The notes beneath the pieces were generated by a model. It ran no database searches. It was not told the origin of the DNA and saw only the letters and a list, made by a program, of their open reading frames with translations. This document shows, piece after piece, positions 35,406-54,531 of a stretch of 64,000 bases of DNA. Each line of letters starts with the position of its first letter. The stretch's first letter is position 1. The position numbers and the translations under genes were made by a program. This stretch comes from Campylobacterales bacterium (GTDB lineage: Bacteria > Campylobacterota > Campylobacteria > Campylobacterales > Sulfurimonadaceae), in NCBI GenBank assembly GCA_016938735.1, contig JAFGUB010000005.1, positions 1 to 64,000 on the forward strand. Reading direction: 5' to 3'.

Positions 35406-35963
35406 GTGAGATTAACGATCATCGCCGGTGCAAACGGTAGTGGTAAAACGACTTTTGCCCTCTCCTACGCAAAATTTAGCGGTTTGGAATTTATTAATGC
35501 TGATGAAATCGCCAAAGAGCTCAACCCTAAAGCAATGGAGCATGAAAAGTTCAATGCGGGAAAAATCTTTCTTCGTCGGATCGAAGAACTGCTCAACCAA
35601 AAACAAGATTTGATTCTTGAAACCACGATGAGCGGTAAATACCTGATCAAAATTATTCAAAAAGCCAAACAAAGTGGTTATTTCATCGATATTTTTTATC
35701 TCTATCTCGAGGACGTCATTGATAACCTTGCACGGGTACAAAATCGGGTTTATAACGGTGGTCATGATATTCCCAAAGAGGATATCATCCGGCGATATTG
35801 CCGCAGCAGAAAACTGTTTTTTGAGCAGTACAAAGCAGTGGCGGATCGCTGGTTTCTCTTTTTCAACGCGGATGATGAATTCGAAGAGGTTGCCAACTTC
35901 GCTGACGGTGAGCTTACCGTACTACATGAGCCGTATTACAATACTTTTGTAAAAGGACTATAA
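35406..35963 (+). CDS. Zeta-toxin-like P-loop kinase
   Basis: A 185-residue protein with Walker A IIAGANGSGKTTFAL at the very N-terminus, FINADEIAKELNP (the NAD/DEIA block of zeta toxins), LILETTMSGKYLIK and a basic helix RRYCRSRKLFFEQY that could contact substrate. Zeta toxins phosphorylate UDP-N-acetylglucosamine and poison wall synthesis; relatives act on other small molecules. Start is GTG 35406 with a strong AAGGAG. The stop shares one base with the next small gene. Base use is AT-richer than average here, suggesting acquisition. Confidence 0.8.
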   Translation: MRLTIIAGANGSGKTTFALSYAKFSGLEFINADEIAKELNPKAMEHEKFNAGKIFLRRIEELLNQKQDLILETTMSGKYLIKIIQKAKQSGYFIDIFYLYLEDVIDNLARVQNRVYNGGHDIPKEDIIRRYCRSRKLFFEQYKAVADRWFLFFNADDEFEEVANFADGELTVLHEPYYNTFVKGL

Positions 35964-36166
35964 TGAAGACAATCGAAAATTACAAATTTCGTGACATGAT
36001 CCTAAAAATCGGAAAAAAAGCGGTCAAAGAGGCGCAAGCACGGAGTTTGGCAAACGGTGTGCCGAATGTCTATAGGCGTGACGGCGTGCCCTATTTTCAA
36101 ATGCCCGATGGTGAAATTACTTCAAAAGTTCCGAAAGAGTATGAGGGGATTTATAAAAGGCATTAG
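35963..36166 (+). CDS. Small basic partner of the zeta-like kinase (putative antitoxin)
   Basis: A 67-residue basic protein, helical N-terminal half (FRDMILKIGKKAVKEAQARS) then a beta-like turn ending YFQMPDGEITSKVPKEY. The start codon shares an A with the upstream stop (TAATG), so it is translationally coupled to the kinase. A tiny gene fused to a zeta-like toxin suggests an antitoxin, but the order (toxin first) is the reverse of epsilon-zeta and the sequence is not epsilon-like. No family recognised. Confidence 0.6.
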   Translation: MKTIENYKFRDMILKIGKKAVKEAQARSLANGVPNVYRRDGVPYFQMPDGEITSKVPKEYEGIYKRH

Positions 36167-36167
36167 G

Positions 36168-36761
36168 ATGATGACCAGCAATATAGATGTATTCGCCGAA
36201 AAATTCGAAAACATAAACCTTCACACCAAAAAAATCACCAAAGCCGAATTTGATGACTGCATCTTTGTTTCGTGCGATTTTAGTGAAACTTTTTTCTCCT
36301 CTTGTACTTTTAATGAATGCCGTTTTGACAACTGCAATCTGAGCCTCACAAAATGGACCAACACCAAAATAAGCGGTACAACGTTTACGGGGTGCAAGAT
36401 GATCGGGATTGATTGGACGATGGCGGATTGGAAGAGCTTGCTCTCTGCCAAGGCGCTGCGTTTTGAGGAGTGCATACTCAACGACAGCAATTTTTTTGGG
36501 TTGAACATGCAAGGTCTGGTGCTGCGGGAGTGTCGCGTCAAAGAGATCGATTTTCGTAACGGGTCGTTTCAAAAAGCCGACTTTAGCCTCAGCGATTTCA
36601 AAGGGGCGCTCTTTGGCAATACCCATCTTGAGGGTGCCAACTTTACCGACGCTTCCAATGTGATGATCGATCTGCGTACCAACCATCTCAAAGGCGCGAT
36701 CTTTAGCCGCTATGAGGCGCTCTTTTTGCTTGAAACCATGGGGATTGTGTTGGTGGACTAA
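36168..36761 (+). CDS. Pentapeptide-repeat protein
   Basis: A 197-residue protein built of repeats of the A(D/N)LxX type, for example DFSETFFSSCTFNECRFDNC, FEECILNDSNFF, FRNGSFQKADFSLSDFKGAL and HLEGANFTDASN. Such right-handed quadrilateral beta-helices mimic DNA in Qnr/McbG proteins and protect gyrase. This one resembles the Qnr layout (two repeat blocks) but the target is not known. ATG 36168 (or 36171) follows the previous stop by one base, so it may belong to the zeta-like module. Confidence 0.85.
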   Translation: MMTSNIDVFAEKFENINLHTKKITKAEFDDCIFVSCDFSETFFSSCTFNECRFDNCNLSLTKWTNTKISGTTFTGCKMIGIDWTMADWKSLLSAKALRFEECILNDSNFFGLNMQGLVLRECRVKEIDFRNGSFQKADFSLSDFKGALFGNTHLEGANFTDASNVMIDLRTNHLKGAIFSRYEALFLLETMGIVLVD

Positions 36762-41201: not shown

Positions 41202-41250
41202 AATCCTTGAAGTAACCGCAGCGGCTCAGGCGTGATGAATGCGCCGTGAA

Positions 41251-41256
41251 TACAAT
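41251..41256 (+). promoter_or_regulatory. -10 element of the Cys/His-tail gene
   Basis: TACAAT, 25 bases before ATG 41282, followed by AAGGAG. Confidence 0.5.
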
Positions 41257-41281
41257 GCGAAAAAAATTCAAGGAGTTTTAC

Positions 41282-41530
41282 ATGTATACGATTTCAGTAG
41301 AGAAAGAGTGCGGATGCTTCAAACGCAGCGATCTGCAAAACAATATTGCAATGGATAACAAAGACGAGGCGATGATGCGTTCGATCGATATGGTCAACCA
41401 GATGAACGGCGAATTCTGCGGCAAGCACAAGTTCAAGCTGATCGAAGCAGGCAGCAGCTTCGTCATCGCGATGAACGACTCCACTTCACACGGTTGTTGC
41501 GGCGGCGGCTGTTCGAGCCACGCGCACTAA
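41282..41530 (+). CDS. Small Cys/His-tailed protein, probable metal binding
   Basis: An 82-residue cytoplasmic protein beginning MYTISVEKECGCFKRSDL, with a middle helix pair (NKDEAMMRSIDMVNQMNGEF) and ending CCGGGCSSHAH. The Cys-Gly-Cys near the start, a central Cys-Gly-Lys-His and the Cys-rich, His-terminated tail suggest binding of copper, nickel or zinc. Similar short proteins occur in Campylobacterota, but I know of no function. The ATG lies inside a one-mismatch palindrome (41278-41287). It is flanked by its own promoter and a strong terminator, so it is monocistronic. Confidence 0.65.
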   Translation: MYTISVEKECGCFKRSDLQNNIAMDNKDEAMMRSIDMVNQMNGEFCGKHKFKLIEAGSSFVIAMNDSTSHGCCGGGCSSHAH

Positions 41531-41555: not shown

Positions 41556-41657
41556 GGCTACTTTCTTATTTTTTTCTTAAATCGAAAACCTTCCATTCAA
41601 CACAAAACAAACTCCAATCGACACACCCTCTACTACAGGAAAAATAGCCATCGCTTT

Positions 41658-41663
41658 ACAATG
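41658..41663 (+). promoter_or_regulatory. -10 element of the sulfur operon
   Basis: TACAAT 29 bases before ATG 41693, with TAGGAG between. Upstream 41556-41657 is AT-rich with no recognised operator. Confidence 0.5.
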
Positions 41664-41692: not shown

Positions 41693-42628
41693 ATGAAAAA
41701 GTTCAATTTGATGTTGCTTTCGGCGGCTGCAGTCATGGCCCTTGGAAGCTCTGCGATGGCCGCAAAGGTTCCCACACCAGATAAAGCACCACAAGGGGCT
41801 AAGATCGCCTCGTTTGAAGATATGCAGCAGATTCAAGCTGATGGCGGGATCGTCTATGATATCCGTTGGCACTACAGCGAGTACGAGTTTGAAGGTCACA
41901 TCCCTGGCGCGGTCTCTGTTCCCTTTACCGAGTGGTCGGCGCTCTCTACCGATTACAACATTAAAGAGGATGTCTTTGACTGGTCTGCCCTTCCCAAAGA
42001 CAAAAATACCCCGATTGCCTTCTACTGCATGGGTGTGAACTGCTGGAAGTCCTACAAAACCGCCGAAGTGGCGGCACAGATGGGGTATAAAAATGTCTAT
42101 TGGTACAAAGAGGGGATGCCAGGTTGGGATAAAAAAGGGTTGCCAGCGAATAACCGCAATGTCACCTATCTGCCTACTGCAAACCTCTTTAGCGGCAAAA
42201 ACAACCCCACCACATGGCTGACCGAGCCTGAAGTGATCAAAGAGTGGATCGACAAGGGCGAGAAGATTAAAATTATCGACCTGCGCTACTGGAGCTTCTT
42301 TGAAGAGGGACGCATCAAAGGTGCATCACAAGTGCCCATTAAAAATCTTCTCTCACGTGATGGCATTCAGCTTCTACCTAAGCCCAAAGAGGGATTCACG
42401 ATTGTGATGGTGAGCGAAAATGGTCAACTGGCTATGGCGGGAGCAGTGGCACTGGCAAATCTGGGATACAAAGTCAAAGTCCTCAATGGCGGTATGGCGG
42501 CATGGGATAAAAAGTTAGGCGGCGCGCACGTTGTCAAGGGGCCACTCGATAACAACTGGCCGGGCAAAAAAGGTTGGGCAGGCCAGAACGTCAAACTGAT
42601 CGGCGAAGTCAAAGTAGAGAAGAAGTAA
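41693..42628 (+). CDS. Periplasmic tandem-rhodanese protein 1
   Basis: A 311-residue exported protein (signal MKKFNLMLLSAAAVMALGSSAMAA) with two rhodanese domains. Domain 1 has GGIVYDIRWHYSEYEFEGHIPG and the loop FYCMGVNCWKSY with Cys112 and Cys117. Domain 2 has KIIDLRYWSFFEEGRIKGAS, but its loop reads MVSENGQLAM, with no cysteine. So only the first domain can carry sulfur as persulfide. It begins an operon with a second tandem rhodanese, a YeeE/YedE transporter, a porin and a DUF302 protein, which points to periplasmic handling of thiosulfate or sulfane sulfur. Confidence 0.9.
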   Translation: MKKFNLMLLSAAAVMALGSSAMAAKVPTPDKAPQGAKIASFEDMQQIQADGGIVYDIRWHYSEYEFEGHIPGAVSVPFTEWSALSTDYNIKEDVFDWSALPKDKNTPIAFYCMGVNCWKSYKTAEVAAQMGYKNVYWYKEGMPGWDKKGLPANNRNVTYLPTANLFSGKNNPTTWLTEPEVIKEWIDKGEKIKIIDLRYWSFFEEGRIKGASQVPIKNLLSRDGIQLLPKPKEGFTIVMVSENGQLAMAGAVALANLGYKVKVLNGGMAAWDKKLGGAHVVKGPLDNNWPGKKGWAGQNVKLIGEVKVEKK

Positions 42629-42638
42629 GGAGCAGCAG

Positions 42639-43625
42639 ATGAAAACCGTAAAAACACTACTCAAAACAGCACTTTTTGGCAGCATGATCGCCGCAAGCAG
42701 CCTCTATGGCAACGCCGAGTTCGATCTTTTGAAGCAGTATGTCGTCGAGCAGAAGCTCGATATGGATAAAGCGATGGACCGCAAAACGTGGATTCCCGAT
42801 GCTGACGGTCTGGTGGAAAATATCAGTGACTACTTTATTCTGGATATCCGCAGCGGCGACGTGGCACCTAAAAACGGCAAGCCCGACTTTGAAGACGGCC
42901 ATATTCCCGGCGCGCACAACACCACTTTTGAAAATGTCCTGAACTATGCCCGTGAACACAAAGCGCCCGATCGCATTTTGGTGGTGAGCGAAGACGGTCA
43001 GGCGGCGGCTGCGGCTGCGGTAGCGCTGCGCATGGCGGGTTATCCCAATACCAAAACGATGAAGTTCGGTATGGCCGGATGGAACAAAAAGTTCGACGTA
43101 TGGAGCGAAAAGCGCGGCAACCTCTCCGAGGGACACAAAAACTGGACCAAAGAGGCAGCACCCGCACCCAAAAAACTAGGAGAGACGCCTGCGCTCAAAA
43201 CCGGCAAGAAAACCGGCAAAGAGATCCTCGAAGCGCAGGTGCAGGCCTTCTTGAAACGCGGCTTCCAGGCGGTGCAGCCTCAGGAGCTTTTGGAGAATCC
43301 GAACAAGTACTTCGTTGTTAATCAGGGCAATGCCAAAGCCTATGGCCAATTTGGCCGCGTCGCCGGATCACAGCAGTTCAATGAGCCGATGATCAATCCC
43401 AAAGATGAGAAGAAATTCGGCAGCATCGAGTTTTATCCTGCGGACAAGCCGATCGTTCAGTACTGCTGGAGCGGTCACGCGGCAATTACGGTGGCCTCTT
43501 GGCTGAACATTTTGGGTTATGACGCCAAAGGCACTGCTTATGGTACCAACGCGCTCTTCTACGACAAAATGACCAAGGCACAGTTCAAAAAACCAGAGGG
43601 TTACGGTTTCGTAACAGGAAAATAA
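42639..43625 (+). CDS. Periplasmic tandem-rhodanese protein 2
   Basis: A 328-residue exported protein (signal ends near ASSLYGNA) with two rhodanese domains joined by a Lys/Pro/Ala-rich linker (about residues 165-195). Domain 1 has YFILDIRSGDVAPKNG but its loop is VVSEDGQAAA, without cysteine. Domain 2 has YFVVNQGNAKAYGQFG and the loop VQYCWSGHAAIT with Cys276. This is the mirror image of the preceding protein, whose cysteine lies in domain 1. A strong ribosome-binding site (AAGGAGCAG) precedes ATG 42639; 10 bases separate the genes. Confidence 0.9.
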   Translation: MKTVKTLLKTALFGSMIAASSLYGNAEFDLLKQYVVEQKLDMDKAMDRKTWIPDADGLVENISDYFILDIRSGDVAPKNGKPDFEDGHIPGAHNTTFENVLNYAREHKAPDRILVVSEDGQAAAAAAVALRMAGYPNTKTMKFGMAGWNKKFDVWSEKRGNLSEGHKNWTKEAAPAPKKLGETPALKTGKKTGKEILEAQVQAFLKRGFQAVQPQELLENPNKYFVVNQGNAKAYGQFGRVAGSQQFNEPMINPKDEKKFGSIEFYPADKPIVQYCWSGHAAITVASWLNILGYDAKGTAYGTNALFYDKMTKAQFKKPEGYGFVTGK

Positions 43626-43634
43626 GGATTGACG

Positions 43635-45284
43635 ATGAGCAAGTTTTGGACGAAACAGTGGTCGTTTATGTGGGCGGGTCTGGCCTTTGGCTTGGCGCAG
43701 ATCTTCTACATGGTCGGCAACTTCTTTCCGGCGTGGGCCGCCGGTAAAACCCCTTCGGTCGAACCGATCACGGTGACAACCGACCTAGGGAAAATGTTTC
43801 GCGGTATGGAGGTCTTCTTGTGTAAAACACTGGGCATCTCTGATACGCAGATTTACGGTACGTCGGTGATGCTCGCGAACGGCGACTGGATTCCGACGGC
43901 GCAGGGGGCTTTTGTGCCCGGCGTGGGCTGGCCGATTGTCGGGATGATGCTCGGCGGTCTTTTGGTGGCCATCATCGAAAGAGAGGGGCGCGGCTGGGCG
44001 AAGTATGACTGGCAGGTCTTGACCATCGCCTTCTTCGGCGGCGCGCTCTTTAGTTACGGCACCCGTTTGGCGGGCGGCTGTACGCTCAACCACCTGCTTG
44101 GCGGCGTGCCGATGATGAATATTCACTCGATGGTTGCGGTAGGCTTTATGTCTTTGGGCGGTTTGGCCGGCTTCTTCTTGATGGGCCTGGTAGACCGCGC
44201 AAAATACTTCAAGCACCAAGAGACTTTGGATTATGCCAAAGAGTCTTATGAGAAGGGCAACTACACCGATTGTGTCTGTTACGATCCTGACTACAAGCCC
44301 AAAAAAGACATGATCCGCTGGCTGGGGATCGCCTTTTCGGTGATCTTTTTCGGTGTGGGGATTGTGGGCGGACTCTTTAACCCCGAGATGTTCCAGTACG
44401 CCAAAGATGCGGCGCACCTCGATCAGCTTAAGGATTTCGGTAAATCGATCGACCATAAAGGTTTGGCTTATGTGCTGCTGACGCTAGCGGCGGGGATCAT
44501 CGGCGGCTTCGGTATGGCCAAATCGGGCTTTGGTACCGAGTGCGGACTGCTCACGGCGGAAGCGCACCACTTCACGACCAAAAACGACACCGTAATGGAC
44601 CGCTTCAATATGCCCAAAATCACTAAAACCCTCTTTAGAGGCATGATGCCGCTGGTGGGGATCTCGGCGATGTGGGTACTGGTTTCGGCCTTTATCATCG
44701 TCACATGGGGCTTTTTGAACTACGAGCACGGCTTTACGGGCGACATCAAGTACGCACTCACTGCAGGCGTGCCCATCGGCGGCTTTATCCTCGGTATGGG
44801 CGCGGTTTTGCTGATCGGTTGTGAAATCCGCTCTTATATGCGCATTGGTCTGGGCTATACCAACACGATGGTCGGTTTTGCGGGATTCGCGATGGGGTAT
44901 ATCCCGTTTACGCTCTACTACAAGGAGCACATGGAGTTCTTCTATGCCACCGATTGGCTCGGCACGGAAGCGGCGATGGCAGCGGGCGAAGCGGGTCTGT
45001 ATCATGTACCGCAGCTCTTTAGCGACAACCACTGGGTGCAAGTGGGCATAGCGATCGTCTGGTTCGTGCTGCTGGTGAAGCTCTTTAAATGGGCCATCAA
45101 CAAAGGGGCGCGCGCTCTGGGTACGACCACCGACGTGATCGCACACAAAAATACCGAGGATGTCCATCGCCTCACCTACGTCGAGGAGCTATACGCTAAG
45201 ACGGCGGAGCGTCTGGGACTGGATGAGTACCAACACTTAAGCGGGTTCGATCACTGGATGAACCGAACCTTCGGCAAAAAGTAG
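43635..45284 (+). CDS. YeeE/YedE-family sulfur-compound transporter
   Basis: A 549-residue membrane protein of the YeeE/YedE (TsuA) family, which imports thiosulfate through conserved cysteines. The equivalent cysteines appear at Cys149 (LAGGCTLNHLLGG), Cys303 (FGTECGLLTAEAHH) and Cys396 (LLIGCEIRSYMRIGLGYTNT). It is longer than typical ~350-residue members: an N-terminal segment with a large loop (about residues 25-90), a cytoplasmic or periplasmic insertion carrying DCVCYDPDYKPKKD, and a C-terminal soluble tail of about 55 residues. ATG 43635 follows AAGGATTGACG. Being third in a rhodanese operon, it probably passes sulfur to or from the rhodaneses. Confidence 0.88.
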   Translation: MSKFWTKQWSFMWAGLAFGLAQIFYMVGNFFPAWAAGKTPSVEPITVTTDLGKMFRGMEVFLCKTLGISDTQIYGTSVMLANGDWIPTAQGAFVPGVGWPIVGMMLGGLLVAIIEREGRGWAKYDWQVLTIAFFGGALFSYGTRLAGGCTLNHLLGGVPMMNIHSMVAVGFMSLGGLAGFFLMGLVDRAKYFKHQETLDYAKESYEKGNYTDCVCYDPDYKPKKDMIRWLGIAFSVIFFGVGIVGGLFNPEMFQYAKDAAHLDQLKDFGKSIDHKGLAYVLLTLAAGIIGGFGMAKSGFGTECGLLTAEAHHFTTKNDTVMDRFNMPKITKTLFRGMMPLVGISAMWVLVSAFIIVTWGFLNYEHGFTGDIKYALTAGVPIGGFILGMGAVLLIGCEIRSYMRIGLGYTNTMVGFAGFAMGYIPFTLYYKEHMEFFYATDWLGTEAAMAAGEAGLYHVPQLFSDNHWVQVGIAIVWFVLLVKLFKWAINKGARALGTTTDVIAHKNTEDVHRLTYVEELYAKTAERLGLDEYQHLSGFDHWMNRTFGKK

Positions 45285-45298
45285 GGCGCTTGTGCGCC
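45285..45298 (+). other. Small hairpin after the YeeE gene
   Basis: GGCGC, loop TTGT, GCGCC. Without a T-run it is not a clear terminator; it may partially attenuate transcription or stabilise mRNA ends between transporter and porin. Confidence 0.35.
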
Positions 45299-45308
45299 TC
45301 AACCACCT

Positions 45309-45318
45309 TTACATGTAA
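45309..45318. repeat. TTACATGTAA upstream of the porin gene
   Basis: Exact non-coding copy, followed by the AAGGAG ribosome-binding site of the porin gene. It is the only exact copy in the sulfur operon region between 39.4 and 47.1 kb. Confidence 0.85.
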
Positions 45319-45332
45319 CAAGGAGATTGACC

Positions 45333-46589
45333 ATGAATGCGAATAAACTTCTTCTATCGGCTCTGGCCGCGGCGACGCTTGCTTCCTCTGCGGTTGCGGG
45401 CCCAAAATTCGAGTATAACGACGGCAAAAGCTCTCTGGAGCTCTTCCAGATGGTTCAATTCTGGGGCATGACCGCTGTGGATGACGACAACGATGATATC
45501 GCCGATCCAAACGATTTATACGTCCGCCGCGGTCGCTTCGGTGCGCGCGGCGCGATCAATCCTGATGTGAGCTATACCGTTTGGTTTGCTTACGACATGA
45601 TCGGTAAAGACGGCAACGACTTTATGATCGGTTCGCCTCAGGACAATACCAACTCCAACAAAGACGTCTATATCTGGGATGCGATGGTGACGTATAAAAT
45701 GAACAAAGAGTTTGCCAATGTCACTTTGGGTTATTTCCGTCCGCAAGTGGGCAAAGAGTCGATCACGTCGGGCTTTCACACCACCAGCTATGAGAAGGGC
45801 CTTTCGAACTTCTTCGTGCGTACCCACCTTGTCGGTCGCGGACCGGGTCGTGAGATGGGGGTTAACGTCGGCGGTTTGACCCTGGGCAACAAGCTCAACT
45901 ATAACTTCGGTCTCTTCAACCCCAACCATACGGGCATCACGGGTGCGACGATGAAAACAGGCACCAACCAGACCGGAACGGTCAAAGAGAACGCATTCAT
46001 GTTCGCGGGCCGCGTAGCGTACAGCATCGGTGACGCCGAGATGGACAAATACAAAATCAGCTACACCACCAACTATTTCGGCAAGCGCAACGGCGTGACC
46101 CTGGCGGTCGAAGGGGCGATGCAAGGCGAGACGGACAAGTTTGAGTCCAACACCTATTACGGCTTTGACGTGTTGGCCAACTTCGGTCAGTTCAACGCCT
46201 CTTATGAGCACAACTTCCTAAGCCGCACCTATACCGACGAGCAAAAAGCGGTGGAAGGATTCAAATTTCAAGACAGCGACGACGTGGTCATGACCGCGCA
46301 CGCCAGTTATAACTTCCCGATCGCCGAGGGCAAGCAGTTCATCGAACCTGCCGTGATGTGGACCCGTTCTGATCTTGACGAGGGCTCTTACTTCGGTCTG
46401 GCCAGCGGCTATAGCAACGGTACCAAGGGCAACGTCACCATCTACAGCGCCGGCGTCAACTGGTACAAAGATAAGATGAAAGAGAAGTACGGGATTCACT
46501 TCGCCAACTTCGACAAGAGCGAAGATATGGACGGCAAAGACGGTGCAGAGCAGTCGGTCGTGACATTGACCGCACAGTTCATCTTTTAA
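45333..46589 (+). CDS. OprP/OprO-like outer membrane porin
   Basis: A 418-residue exported protein (signal ends at SSAVAG) with alternating beta-barrel strands, an early YVRRGRFGARGAINPDVSYT segment typical of phosphate-selective porin O/P-like barrels, FRPQVGKESITSGF, and a C-terminal aromatic (LTAQFIF). In this operon it may admit sulfur oxyanions across the outer membrane, an inference from position. ATG 45333 is preceded by AAGGAG. Confidence 0.85.
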   Translation: MNANKLLLSALAAATLASSAVAGPKFEYNDGKSSLELFQMVQFWGMTAVDDDNDDIADPNDLYVRRGRFGARGAINPDVSYTVWFAYDMIGKDGNDFMIGSPQDNTNSNKDVYIWDAMVTYKMNKEFANVTLGYFRPQVGKESITSGFHTTSYEKGLSNFFVRTHLVGRGPGREMGVNVGGLTLGNKLNYNFGLFNPNHTGITGATMKTGTNQTGTVKENAFMFAGRVAYSIGDAEMDKYKISYTTNYFGKRNGVTLAVEGAMQGETDKFESNTYYGFDVLANFGQFNASYEHNFLSRTYTDEQKAVEGFKFQDSDDVVMTAHASYNFPIAEGKQFIEPAVMWTRSDLDEGSYFGLASGYSNGTKGNVTIYSAGVNWYKDKMKEKYGIHFANFDKSEDMDGKDGAEQSVVTLTAQFIF

Positions 46590-46599
46590 AGGATAAGCC

Positions 46600-47076
46600 A
46601 TGCGTCTGATTCAGGGAATGGTTGTCGGAGCGGTCGTTGCCGCTTTGGCGATCTATATGACCATGATGTCCGTAGCCGGCGATATGATGTTTGTCGAGCG
46701 CGTCTCTCCGTATAGCTATGAAGAGACCATCGCCAAAGTGAAGCAGAGCTACCTTGACAACGGCTGGCAGGTACTCAGCGTCAAAGACAGCAATGAGGGT
46801 TTTGTGAAAAAGGGCAAAGCGTCCGTGGGCAAGATTACCAACATGAAGGTGTGCGCCGATGAGATCGCGTATGAGCTGCTCAAAAACGACGCCAACAAGC
46901 ACATCATTACGATGATGCCCTGCGGTGTGGGTATTTACGAAAAAGGCGGCAAAGTCTATGTCGCCACCATGAATGTCGGGATGATGAAGGGGATGATGTC
47001 TCCTGAAGTTGAAACGATCATGGGGCGCGTCGCGGCTGATACCGACAAGGTGATGCAGGTGCTTGCCAAACGGTAG
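46600..47076 (+). CDS. Membrane-anchored DUF302 protein
   Basis: A 158-residue protein with an N-terminal membrane anchor (about 5-27) and a DUF302-type domain: SYEETIAKVKQSYLDNGW, VCADEIAYELLKND, ITMMPCGVGIYEKGGKVY and MNVGMMKGMMSPEV. DUF302 proteins recur in sulfur-oxidiser gene sets with unknown function. Two cysteines and a Met-rich stretch (MNVGMMKGMM) could bind metal or heme. It is 10 bases after the porin and ends the sulfur operon; a hairpin with T-run follows. Confidence 0.82.
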   Translation: MRLIQGMVVGAVVAALAIYMTMMSVAGDMMFVERVSPYSYEETIAKVKQSYLDNGWQVLSVKDSNEGFVKKGKASVGKITNMKVCADEIAYELLKNDANKHIITMMPCGVGIYEKGGKVYVATMNVGMMKGMMSPEVETIMGRVAADTDKVMQVLAKR

Positions 47077-47078
47077 GC

Positions 47079-47088
47079 TTACATGTAA
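47079..47088. repeat. TTACATGTAA abutting the sulfur-operon terminator
   Basis: Exact copy extended to a 14-base perfect palindrome (47077-47090); its last bases form the left arm of the terminator stem. Confidence 0.85.
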
Positions 47089-47117
47089 GCGTCCTTTGCG
47101 GGCGCTTCGGTTTTTTT
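47087..47117 (+). terminator. Rho-independent terminator of the sulfur operon
   Basis: AAGCGTCC (47087-47094), loop TTTGC, GGGCGCTT (47100-47107; one T-G wobble), then seven T at 47111-47117. Confidence 0.78.
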
Positions 47118-47226: not shown

Positions 47227-48849
47227 ATGAAGAGGCCTCATTCCGTGATCGATATCAACGCCCAGCAGCAGCGCATCAAGTCTAAAACCTCGATGTACAT
47301 CATCGTGATTACGTTGCTCTTTGGACTCTTTAGTATCGGGTATCTTTTTTTGGAAAAACGCAATGCCCTAGAAAAGTCGCTTGAAGACAATGCCCGCATT
47401 GCCGGCGAATTTTTTTACGCACAGGTGCGCAAAAACACCCAGCTACTCGCCAATGTGAGTGACCGCATGATGCGCGACGAGGTGCTGATAAAGGTCTTTG
47501 TGGCACAGGATCGAGAGGCTTTGGTGCGTGAGTCGGAGCGCTACTTCGATTGGCTGAGGCTACTCAACGCCGACATCAGCAACATGCACTACTATCTGCC
47601 CGATACCGTCTCATTTTTGCGGATGCATAAGCGCGAAGCGTATGGAGATGATCTCTCGTGCATCACCCCCATCGTCACCGCAACCAATAAGACTTTGCAG
47701 CGTCATGAAGGGTATGAGGCGGGGCTTTACGGCTTTTATCTGCGGGTGGTGAGTCCGCTGTTTTATGAACGCCGCCATATCGGTGCGCTGGGGCTGGGGC
47801 TGAACCTCTCAGCCATCATCAGTGAGCTGCAGCAGGTCAACCGCGGGATCTATCTCATTGCGATGGAGCATCAAGACCCCGCGCTCGAAAAGCTGTCGCA
47901 GTTTCACAATATGCAAGATTTCAGCATCTATCAGTCTCCAAAGCGCACCTACATCGCGAAAAAGCGCAGCGATCTTGAGCGTTTTGCACCTCTTTTGAGC
48001 GATGCCGCAAAGAGCACGAGCGAGGTGATCACCTTGCAGAATCGGCGTTATCTCGTTAGCTATGCGATGAAGATCAACAATTTCGAAGAGCAGACCATCG
48101 CCACCATCGTCAGTATCCATGACGTCTCCGACATCTACCGCAAATTCAATGCCGATCTGGTGCGCTCGGTGATTCTCAATATCCTGATGATCGTGTTGGT
48201 GCTGCTGGCGCTTGAGCACGGCTTTAAGCTCTACGGTACCCAGACCCAGCAGCTTTACCGCGAATACGCTCAGACCTCCATGCGTCTGCAGTCGCTCAGC
48301 TCCAAGCTCAATCCGCACTTTCTGGTCAATGCGCTCAACGTCATCTCGGAACTGATGTACTCCAACGTGGCCAAGGCCGAAGAGAATATCGTGCGTCTCT
48401 CGCAATTGCTGCGCAACTATCTCGGAGCCAAAGAGAGTCTTACCTTGCGCGACGAGCTCGACTACACGCTTGATTACTGTTACCTCCAAAACACCCGTTT
48501 CAACGATCTGCACAAAGTGCGCATCAAGGTGAATGATGAGCAACTTTATAATGTAGTGATTCCGAAGTTCTCCATTCAGCTTCTGGTCGAAAACGCCTTT
48601 AAGCACGCTTTGCAGCTCAAAACGCCGATGATCATCAAGATACATGTCTACAGACGGGGCGATAAGGTGGTATTATCGGTCTCGAATACGGGTAAGAAGG
48701 TTGAGCGCATCACGTTCGGTTTTGGCCTGAGCAATCTGCAGACCCGTATCGAGGAGTCGTGCAATGGCTCGATGCGCTATGCACACAAATGCGGTGTGAC
48801 CAACTTTACCCTCTATTTAAAGGAGCCTTGTGAATTTTTTGGTTATTGA
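47227..48849 (+). CDS. LytS/YehU-family sensor histidine kinase
   Basis: A 540-residue membrane kinase: helix 1 (about 24-43), a large periplasmic sensing region (about 50-305, Cache-like in layout), helix 2 (about 317-336), then the HisKA_7-type domain with LNPHFLVNALNVISELMY where His364 is the phospho-acceptor, and ATPase motifs LLVENAFKHALQLK and FGFGLSNLQTRIEE. The ligand is unknown. It overlaps its response regulator by 20 bases. No ribosome-binding site is visible between the -10 and ATG 47227; a GTG at 47245 is an alternative. Confidence 0.9.
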   Translation: MKRPHSVIDINAQQQRIKSKTSMYIIVITLLFGLFSIGYLFLEKRNALEKSLEDNARIAGEFFYAQVRKNTQLLANVSDRMMRDEVLIKVFVAQDREALVRESERYFDWLRLLNADISNMHYYLPDTVSFLRMHKREAYGDDLSCITPIVTATNKTLQRHEGYEAGLYGFYLRVVSPLFYERRHIGALGLGLNLSAIISELQQVNRGIYLIAMEHQDPALEKLSQFHNMQDFSIYQSPKRTYIAKKRSDLERFAPLLSDAAKSTSEVITLQNRRYLVSYAMKINNFEEQTIATIVSIHDVSDIYRKFNADLVRSVILNILMIVLVLLALEHGFKLYGTQTQQLYREYAQTSMRLQSLSSKLNPHFLVNALNVISELMYSNVAKAEENIVRLSQLLRNYLGAKESLTLRDELDYTLDYCYLQNTRFNDLHKVRIKVNDEQLYNVVIPKFSIQLLVENAFKHALQLKTPMIIKIHVYRRGDKVVLSVSNTGKKVERITFGFGLSNLQTRIEESCNGSMRYAHKCGVTNFTLYLKEPCEFFGY

Positions 48850-49546
48850 TGATGAGCAGTTGGCGGCGGATAAGATCAAGCGGCTGCTTGAATCGATGGG
48901 CTACACCCATATCACCACCACGACTTCTGCCGCCGAAGGGGTGGAGATTTGCAAGTACCGCTACTTCGACGTGATTTTTCTGGATATCAACATGCCTGAG
49001 AAGATGGGGCTTGAGGTGGCCAAAGAGATTTTGTACATCAATGCTGCATCGCACATCGTCTTTACGACGGCGTACGATCAGTACGCGCTTGAGTCGTACA
49101 AGATCGGGGCGATTGATTATCTGATGAAGCCCGTGACGGCGGCTGCCTTGCAAGGCTCCATCCACCGCGTGAACCGCTATATCAGCTCGGCTAAGAGTGA
49201 CGCCAATCCTTCTGCGACGATTATGGCCAAAGATCAAGAGAAGATCACCCTGCTGAAGATGGATGATATCTACATCATTACCGCCCATTTAAGCGACACC
49301 TCCGTGCGTACCAAAGAGGGGGAGCTCTTTACCGGCAAGAAGATCTCCGACTTCAACGCCTTCACCTCAAACCGCCAGTTTGTCAAGGTGCACCGCTCGC
49401 AGATCATCAACATCTACAAAATCGCTTATCTCGAAACGATCGAGCAGGGTAAATACCGTATCCACTTTAAAGAGATCGATGAGGTGGTCTATACCAGCCG
49501 CAGCGGCGCACAACTGCTGCGCGAACTCTTTGAACAGATGCTCTAA
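48830..49546 (+). CDS. LytTR-type response regulator
   Basis: A 238-residue regulator: receiver domain with acidic pair (IDDEQLAADK), phospho-acceptor Asp52 in VIFLDINMP, FTTAYDQYALESY and IDYLMKPVT; then a LytTR DNA-binding domain with ISDFNAFTSNRQFVKVHRSQIIN. Start GTG 48830 lies within the kinase gene. It probably binds paired direct repeats upstream of target promoters, which I cannot identify here. Confidence 0.92.
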   Translation: MNFLVIDDEQLAADKIKRLLESMGYTHITTTTSAAEGVEICKYRYFDVIFLDINMPEKMGLEVAKEILYINAASHIVFTTAYDQYALESYKIGAIDYLMKPVTAAALQGSIHRVNRYISSAKSDANPSATIMAKDQEKITLLKMDDIYIITAHLSDTSVRTKEGELFTGKKISDFNAFTSNRQFVKVHRSQIINIYKIAYLETIEQGKYRIHFKEIDEVVYTSRSGAQLLRELFEQML

Positions 49547-49552
49547 AAAAGG

Positions 49553-49562
49553 TTACATGTAA
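49553..49562. repeat. TTACATGTAA overlapping a start codon
   Basis: Exact copy whose final A is the first base of ATG 49562. Confidence 0.85.
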
Positions 49563-49885
49563 TGAACTTTCTCAAACAAGAGGGCTTGATGGTGATGGCG
49601 GCGTTGTTGCTGCTTTTCCCGATGCTTTTTTCTATCGGCGAGGGGCTTTATGAGATTCTCAAAACTGTGGTGTGGCTCATTTTTTGGGTCTATCTCTTTC
49701 GTACCTACCGCGAGGAGCGACGATGGATGGCGCTCTTTGCCCTGCCGGTGCTGATCTACAACCCCTTTTTCGTGTTGGCGTTTTCGCCTGAGTTGTGGGC
49801 GTTGCTGCACGGCTTTTTCTTTGTGCTAAGCTTCTTGTGGCTGCTTAAAAAGCTGCGCCCGATTTTACTTCAAAAGGAGTCGTAA
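49562..49885 (+). CDS. Small three-helix membrane protein
   Basis: A 107-residue membrane protein with three to four hydrophobic helices, motif FALPVLIYNPFFVLAF and a basic end (KKLRPILLQKES). The short YNPFF-containing family is uncharacterised. AAAAAAGG before the palindrome could serve as ribosome-binding site. Its stop overlaps the start of the ribonucleotide reductase gene by one base, so the two are co-transcribed. Confidence 0.65.
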   Translation: MNFLKQEGLMVMAALLLLFPMLFSIGEGLYEILKTVVWLIFWVYLFRTYREERRWMALFALPVLIYNPFFVLAFSPELWALLHGFFFVLSFLWLLKKLRPILLQKES

Positions 49886-53199: not shown

Positions 53200-53209
53200 T
53201 TACATGTAA
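53200..53209. repeat. TTACATGTAA providing a stop codon
   Basis: The symporter reads it on the minus strand as Tyr-Met-stop, the only gene in the window using the frame that contains the TAA. Confidence 0.85.
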
Positions 53210-54531
53210 CGCTTTTGAAAATAGCGTTGCGACTCCTCGGTGACGACTTTGTGCAGCAGCAGCAGCGCGATGAGGTTGGGCAGGATCATCAGGCCGTTGA
53301 ACAGATCGGAGAGGTTCCACGCCAGCTCTAGCTTGAGCTGCGCACCGATGAAAATGGCGATGACAAACACCAGCCGATACCAGAAAATAGAGCGTGCCCC
53401 CAGCAAAAACTCCATCGCTTTTTCACCGAAGTAGCTCCAGCCGATCAAGGTAGAGTAGGCAAAAAGCAGCGTCGCACTCGTGACCACCAGCGCCCCAAAC
53501 CCGCCCAAAAAGTGCGCGAAACTTTGATACGTCAGCTCTGCTGCGCTCACTCCTTCACCCCACTGCGGCGCCATCAAGATCACCAGCGCCGTGGCCGTGC
53601 AGACGATGAGGGTGTCGATGAAGGTTTGCGTCATGCTCACGAGTGCCTGCTCGACCGGCTCATCGGTTTTGGCGGCGGCTGCGGCGATGGCGGCGGAACC
53701 CATGCCCGCTTCGTTGGAGAAGATCCCCCGCGCCACCCCGTAGCGAATCGCCGCCGCCACGCTTGCCCCCACAAAGCCCCCGCCCGCCGCGATGGGCTCA
53801 AAGGCGTAGCGAAAAATCAAGCCCAGAGCGTCCAGCGCCTCGGCGGGATGGGTGAAGATGACGGCCAGCGCACTGAGCAGATAGGCCGCGATCATAAAAG
53901 GCACCAGCGCGCTTGTAAATCGTCCGATGGAGCGGATGCCCCCTAAAATGACCGCGCCGCTGAGCACCATCATCACCGCGCCGCTCAGCCATGGGGCGAT
54001 GTCGGCTTTGGCCTGAAGCAGTTGCGCGACCGAATTGGACTGCACCATGTTGCCGATCCCAAAAGCGGCAAAGGCCGCAAAGACGGCAAAAGCCACCCCC
54101 AGCCACGGCAGCTTTGCGCCGTAGGTGAGGTAGTACATCGGCCCGCCGCGCGCACCGTGCGGGGTGATTTCGCGGTAGTGGACGGCCAGCAGGGATTCGG
54201 AGTATTTCGTCGCCATTCCCAGCAGACCCACCGCCCACATCCAAAAGACCGCGCCGGGGCCGCCAAGCGTGATGGCGGTGGCCACCCCGACGATATTGCC
54301 GATGCCCACGGTCGCCGCAAGCGAGGTGGCCAGCGCGGCGAAATGCGAAATGTCGCCCTTGGCGTGCGGCTCTTTTTTGAAGATGAGCCGCAGTGCCAGC
54401 GGCAGGGCGCGAAACTGCAGCAGGCGCAAGCGGTAACTTAAAAAAAGTCCGGTGACGACCAGCATGATGAGCGTAGGTACGCCCCACACGAGGTTGGAAA
54501 GGGTGGCGATGAGCGATTCAAAGGCGGCCAT
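53200..54531 (-). CDS. Sodium:alanine/glycine symporter (AGCS, AlsT)
   Basis: A 443-residue transporter with about ten membrane helices and the AGCS signatures ISHFAALATSLAATVGIGNI, GPGAVFWMWAVGLLGMATKY and ARGIFSNEAGMGSAAIAAAA. Probably imports alanine or glycine with Na+. Its final codons and stop (Tyr-Met-stop) are the third reading frame of an exact palindrome copy at 53200. A TACAAT (minus strand) lies 27 bases upstream of the start. Confidence 0.93.
   Translation of the reverse strand: MAAFESLIATLSNLVWGVPTLIMLVVTGLFLSYRLRLLQFRALPLALRLIFKKEPHAKGDISHFAALATSLAATVGIGNIVGVATAITLGGPGAVFWMWAVGLLGMATKYSESLLAVHYREITPHGARGGPMYYLTYGAKLPWLGVAFAVFAAFAAFGIGNMVQSNSVAQLLQAKADIAPWLSGAVMMVLSGAVILGGIRSIGRFTSALVPFMIAAYLLSALAVIFTHPAEALDALGLIFRYAFEPIAAGGGFVGASVAAAIRYGVARGIFSNEAGMGSAAIAAAAAKTDEPVEQALVSMTQTFIDTLIVCTATALVILMAPQWGEGVSAAELTYQSFAHFLGGFGALVVTSATLLFAYSTLIGWSYFGEKAMEFLLGARSIFWYRLVFVIAIFIGAQLKLELAWNLSDLFNGLMILPNLIALLLLHKVVTEESQRYFQKRYM

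Follow-up and report, generated by a model that had tools for sequence, protein, structure and literature searches.

The passage of sulfur atoms across the inner membrane, and the recipient of these atoms, are poorly understood. YeeE and YedE proteins normally use a TusA-like partner. We analysed a 64,000-nucleotide stretch (contig JAFGUB010000005.1 of assembly GCA_016938735.1, a Campylobacterales bacterium of the Sulfurimonadaceae, with relatives among the sulfur-oxidising Campylobacterota; hereafter the window), in which five plus-strand open reading frames (ORFs) at 41693-47076 encode two rhodaneses (Rhd1 and Rhd2), a YeeE/YedE-family transporter (hereafter YeeE), a porin and a DUF302 protein. 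These five genes had been described as a sulfur module in an earlier sequence-only reading, and their positions and identities were confirmed in an ORF and Pfam check, in which the matches for Rhodanese (twice), Sulf_transp, Porin_O_P and DUF302 all exceeded the curated cut-offs. The five-gene operon stood, but the boundary had been drawn too narrowly, as the three genes that come next, a kinase-regulator pair of LytTR type and a DUF6804 gene, belong with it (see below). The resulting eight-gene module looks made for sensing, capturing and importing sulfur. We put at roughly 0.55 the probability that it is a TusA-independent, sensor-controlled importer of sulfane sulfur (polysulfide or thiosulfate sulfur) complementing a Sox system that lacks SoxCD.

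The window YeeE resembles YedE/FdhT of E. coli (model NF033796) in the order of its halves and in having counterparts of C149 and C396, but it is ~23% identical to that protein and has an extra periplasmic segment, a CxC loop, a longer tail and no YedF partner. With TsuA/YeeE (6LEO, 8J4C; TsuA-TsuB in E. coli) it shares the family, the pore cysteines and a sulfur-carrier context, whereas its halves are swapped and neither a TsuB/YeeD partner nor any other TusA-family protein was detected: the genome, which is 99.7% complete, gave no match to PF01206 in a search that was positive in 11 of 14 controls. SoxT1 and SoxT2 of Hyphomicrobium and Paracoccus are YeeE-like importers proposed to bring in SoxYZ-bound sulfane sulfur; they are 330-350 aa long and encoded at sox clusters (PMC11582611), whereas the window YeeE has 549 aa and lies on a contig separate from sox. 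The YTD cluster (yeeE, tusA, dsrE, chp1, chp2) also ties a YeeE-family importer to sulfur trafficking (PMC13047784), but the window operon carries rhodanese, porin and DUF302 genes instead of tusA or dsrE. A similar cluster is known from Desulfurivibrio dismutans, a sulfur disproportionator that has TusA, for which the available portion of the report (PMC12142623) describes a porin, periplasmic sulfurtransferases/rhodaneses and YeeE/YedE as co-localised and proposes import of S0 or polysulfide; that portion describes no DUF302 protein or LytTR two-component system in the cluster, unlike the window. The concept of such a module therefore has a precedent. What the window adds is a YeeE subfamily that bears a CxC loop, its occurrence in a genome where TusA was not detected, and a sensor linked to the operon.

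The YeeE subfamily and its CxC loop

The window YeeE, encoded by the only Sulf_transp gene in its genome, scored 61.7 bits against PF04143 (gathering score 27), and its homologues scored 75 and 70 bits. The TsuA model NF052577 gave 38-51 bits against a curated cut-off of 400, and the YedE/FdhT model NF033796 gave 40-46 bits against a cut-off of 350, whereas two true YedE proteins from the same order reached 522-524 bits on the latter model; an ordinary YedE in a genome of this order adjoins its TusA-like YedF. As neither curated cut-off was approached, the protein was treated as a third subfamily. Relative to PF04143 and TsuA, the two halves of YeeE have exchanged places, and the same is true of YedE. 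A circular permutation unique to this YeeE was rejected, because E. coli YedE has an identical half order and aligns with it collinearly (hhalign probability 96%, 241 columns). Alignments with 6LEO/6LEP place C149 and C396 in the motifs that hold C293 and C91 of TsuA, respectively, and the same two residues match C132 and C308 of YedE. C303 lies near YedE C241, offset in the alignment, and C241 was taken as the counterpart of TsuA C22. In SoxT1B, all three conserved cysteines are essential (PMC11582611).

The sequence-only reading had noticed that YeeE is enlarged, by an insertion that contains a CxC motif and by a tail that is soluble; this proved real, and both the insertion and the tail are kept in three YeeE homologues. 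The CxC pair (C213, C215) is invariant in these three proteins, which are 78-84% identical. The helix before the insertion corresponds in the alignment to the final TsuA helix, ~18 residues before the end of E. coli TsuA, and in Spirochaeta TsuA the TusA-like YeeD is fused behind this last-helix position (8J4C/8K1R, 460 aa). Since the CxC loop sits where TsuA ends, or where YeeD is fused in Spirochaeta, it is predicted to be cytoplasmic and to lie at the position of the sulfur acceptor.

Conservation, putative regulation and linkage of the operon

Relatives of the module were sought with the YeeE protein in ~85,000 species genomes, in one scan with short, low-degeneracy peptide patterns whose scope is close relatives. 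A single YeeE relative (~77-78% identity) was obtained, in the Campylobacteraceae metagenome-assembled genome SI074_bin141 (locus L013), where all five operon genes are present in unchanged order. In operon order, identities were 60% for Rhd1, 57% for Rhd2, 78% for YeeE, 56% for the porin and 52% for the DUF302 protein. The SI074_bin141 genome is AT-rich (GC ~0.33 versus 0.53), and retention of the same order at 52-78% identity in such a genome indicates that the five-gene order is beyond chance. In whole-genome searches, the module was found in 1 of 397 sampled genomes of the phylum and 1 of 228 genomes of the family; among 100 relatives of SI074, two were positive, one of them being SI074 itself. 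Conservation of the gene order in other Campylobacterota, which had been suggested as a check, therefore holds for SI074_bin141 but is not general.

In a third carrier, G522, YeeE is 84% identical; its contig measures 3.2 kb and breaks off upstream of the gene. The next gene there encodes an OprD-type porin (L020:29-1471, minus strand) in place of Porin_O_P, suggesting non-homologous porin replacement; a porin role thus persists, with another family of porin. No Rhd1 relative was found in the G522 genome, and a search with Rhd2 gave no match among 150 relatives of G522. YeeE had no match on plasmids by tblastn and no relative among viral contigs in the scan, and Rhd1 retrieved only generic rhodaneses of ~30% identity from plasmids. 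The patchy distribution of the module suggests horizontal transfer or repeated loss. A recent foreign origin of the operon was unsupported by composition, as GC and GC3 of most of its genes equal those of the window (Rhd1 slightly lower). A sodium:alanine symporter gene lies close to the module in both genomes (window 53200-54531, minus strand; L013 13841-15289, minus strand; 36% identical), which may be a coincidence.

In the window, the kinase, regulator and DUF6804 genes lie downstream of the operon (47227-49885); in L013 this trio, in unchanged order, lies upstream of it. The dCache_3 kinases of the two loci are 36% identical and the LytTR regulators 42%, and the DUF6804 protein is 45% identical to the product of L013 7479-7787, likewise the gene after the regulator; LytS-type kinase and LytTR regulator domains were found at both loci. 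Because the linkage is kept although the block lies on opposite sides, these three genes were assigned to the module.

The promoter that had been placed at 41658 was borne out in part. A plausible -10 box, TACAAT, starts at 41657, 36 bp before the ATG of rhd1, but the -35 box is poor, and sigma-70 sites in the region were no more numerous than in shuffles. Direct repeats with a 21-bp period occur upstream of rhd1 in both the window and L013, and in both genomes the start of the second repeat is 44 bp from the -10 box, with the L013 box chosen by the analyst from two candidates, the other of which gives a different distance. The four-copy repeat signature common to the two genomes was equalled in 3 of 1500 dinucleotide shuffles when a period of 21 and a location within 5 bp were required, and in 16-78 of 1500 when these requirements were relaxed. 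In LytTR operators, the repeats typically measure 9 bp, are spaced by 12 bp and lie ~10 bp ahead of the -35 box (PMC6193735), and the geometry of the candidate repeats fits such a site. Upstream of the promoter, at 41246-41530, there is a small Cys-rich ORF of 94 aa that ends in HGCCGGGCSSHAH and has its own hairpin; it had no family match.

Proposed sulfur route and alternative explanations

Rhd1 and Rhd2 each combine one Cys-bearing with one Cys-free domain, in mirrored order: Rhd1 carries CMGVNC (C112, C117) in its N-domain and Rhd2 carries QYCWSGH (C276) in its C-domain. These are the only cysteines of the two proteins, and all are conserved. Both proteins show the domain, the active-site Cys and the predicted signal peptide (judged by eye from sequence only) of periplasmic rhodaneses. 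The DUF302 protein has a conserved Cys pair (C85, C108), both residues of which are also present in the solved DUF302 structure 1Q9U. In Sulfurovum, adjacent rhodanese genes are induced by S0 (PMC10045233), and they might be the same pair as rhd1-rhd2.

The absence of sox genes noted by the sequence-only reading is true of the window, but the same genome has soxX, soxY, soxZ, soxA and soxB, with only one SoxY, on another contig. soxB is followed by genes for an OprD porin, a SoxH-like protein, a thioredoxin, a weak cytochrome match, DsrE and a weak DUF302 match; DUF302 genes have been reported in sox clusters without soxCD (PMC5037610). soxC was not detected in the genome, so that no complete Sox set (SoxXYZAB with SoxCD) was found, and the single Oxidored_molyb protein resembles SorA, not SoxC, and is accompanied by a SorB-like cytochrome; SoxCD is therefore apparently absent. 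Accordingly, the dedicated sulfur route differing from Sox that had been proposed remains the best reading, with gene order conserved, but not as an alternative in a Sox-less organism: given soxXYZAB without detectable soxC, plus sorAB-like genes, the module more likely complements an incomplete Sox. Right after the sorAB-like genes (L026:7403-9835, contig C4) lies a gene for an 810-aa apparent fusion of a NirB-like FAD/NAD oxidoreductase with a [NiFe]-hydrogenase small subunit.

In the proposed route, the porin would admit a sulfur compound to the periplasm, where Rhd1, with its CxxxxC motif, and Rhd2, with its single Cys, would take up sulfane sulfur as persulfides, possibly from SoxYZ too, and the Cys pair of the DUF302 protein may aid sulfur handling. 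YeeE would then move the sulfur across the membrane via the pore cysteines C149, C303 and C396, and the predicted cytoplasmic CxC loop would accept it, replacing a TusA-like partner. The dCache_3 kinase would detect an external signal, and the LytTR regulator would activate the operon through the direct repeats upstream of rhd1.

Several observations weigh against this route. The whole operon was found in only one other genome, SI074_bin141, and the G522 YeeE stands beside a different porin on its 3.2-kb contig, where rhodanese linkage is not visible. TusA was not found in G429 either, a genome of only 1.3 Mb, and the protein with a TusA domain that G522 encodes is a YedF of the selenium type. 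The equivalence of C303 to TsuA C22 is approximate, and the loop topology was derived from alignment and charge, a two-sequence AlphaFold model of YeeE reaching a pLDDT of only 33. Moreover, soxB (L023:10286-12061, contig C47) reads through in one frame except for a lone TAG at codon 153 (MDSGDT*QGTG), which would mean a pseudogene, variation among strains or an error of assembly, and this stop makes Sox activity uncertain. A further-reaching form of the proposal, a third YeeE/YedE subfamily with its own cytoplasmic CxC acceptor that imports sulfur independently of TusA under a LytTR sensor for extracellular reduced sulfur, is put forward tentatively, as less likely than not.

One alternative is an ordinary TsuA- or SoxT-like uptake of thiosulfate or sulfane sulfur, with the CxC loop uninvolved and another cytoplasmic acceptor, for example glutathione, a DsrE protein or a rhodanese. 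The absence of TusA alone is no proof that the loop replaces it; a cytoplasmic rhodanese has been proposed as acceptor in the SoxT1A system (PMC11582611), and a DsrE protein is encoded next to the sox genes of this genome. We consider this explanation rather unlikely, as the conserved unit encodes neither a cytoplasmic rhodanese nor TusA, and the invariant CxC of the three homologues (78-84% identical) lies at the junction of the TusA-like fusion in Spirochaeta TsuA. Export or detoxification, in which excess cytoplasmic sulfane sulfur or sulfide is sent to the periplasm and out via the porin, is improbable: import is the direction in those YeeE/TsuA/SoxT relatives that have been characterised (PMC11582611), and the sensor domain belongs to an extracytoplasmic type, although the direction of transport is not fixed by sequence and rhodaneses with a porin would suit export too.

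The half order and collinearity shared with E. coli YedE, a putative selenium transporter, raise the further alternative of a divergent YedE moving selenium (or tellurium) species, with the rhodaneses as selenium carriers. The best NCBIfam match of the Rhd1 N-domain is the rhodanese part of the selenoprotein TsoB, which is listed with a UxxxxU motif (PMC13188914), and the CxxxxC spacing of Rhd1 equals it. However, both motif positions in Rhd1 are Cys, neither full locus has a YedF or Sel gene beside YeeE, and the YedE model gave 40 bits against a cut-off of 350 and 522 for a true YedE of the same order, making a selenium route highly improbable.

Features of the locus and their significance

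The features are collected in Table 1. The terminator that had been predicted at 47087 is present as a terminator-like hairpin. Elsewhere in the window (35406-36761), a zeta-toxin-like kinase gene is followed by a gene for a pentapeptide-repeat protein.

Table 1. Coordinates of the module genes and associated sites in the window.
Feature	Position	Strand	Evidence
Candidate LytTR operator, direct repeats TCCATTCAA-N12-TCCAATCGA, period 21 bp	41592..41621	+	sequence; same geometry in L013
Candidate activator-dependent promoter, -35 TACAGG, 17 bp, -10 TACAAT	41634..41662	+	sequence only
rhd1, exported two-domain rhodanese, 311 aa	41693..42628	+	Pfam Rhodanese E=3.5e-30, two stretches
rhd2, exported two-domain rhodanese, 328 aa	42639..43625	+	Pfam Rhodanese E=8.8e-15
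YeeE/YedE-family sulfur transporter, 549 aa, CxC loop and soluble tail	43635..45284	+	Pfam Sulf_transp E=1.2e-16
YeeE loop insertion, residues ~188-225, C213-V-C215	44196..44309	+	alignment of homologues; predicted cytoplasmic
Outer-membrane porin, Porin_O_P type, 418 aa	45333..46589	+	Pfam PF07396 E=4.4e-10
DUF302 protein, 158 aa, N-terminal membrane anchor	46600..47076	+	Pfam PF03625 E=6.8e-8
Intrinsic terminator-like hairpin, then T-run	47087..47107	+	sequence
Sensor histidine kinase, dCache_3 and LytS-type His_kinase	47227..48849	+	domain matches
LytTR response regulator	48830..49546	+	domain matches
Small DUF6804 membrane protein	49562..49885	+	Pfam DUF6804 E=3.9e-9

A YeeE-type importer with a CxC loop at the TusA fusion point, in a genome with no detectable TusA, makes the question of the sulfur acceptor addressable in one protein. 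The linked two-component system would open a route to a bacterial sensor of external reduced sulfur, and the module may account for the disposal of sulfane sulfur by a Sox system without SoxCD.

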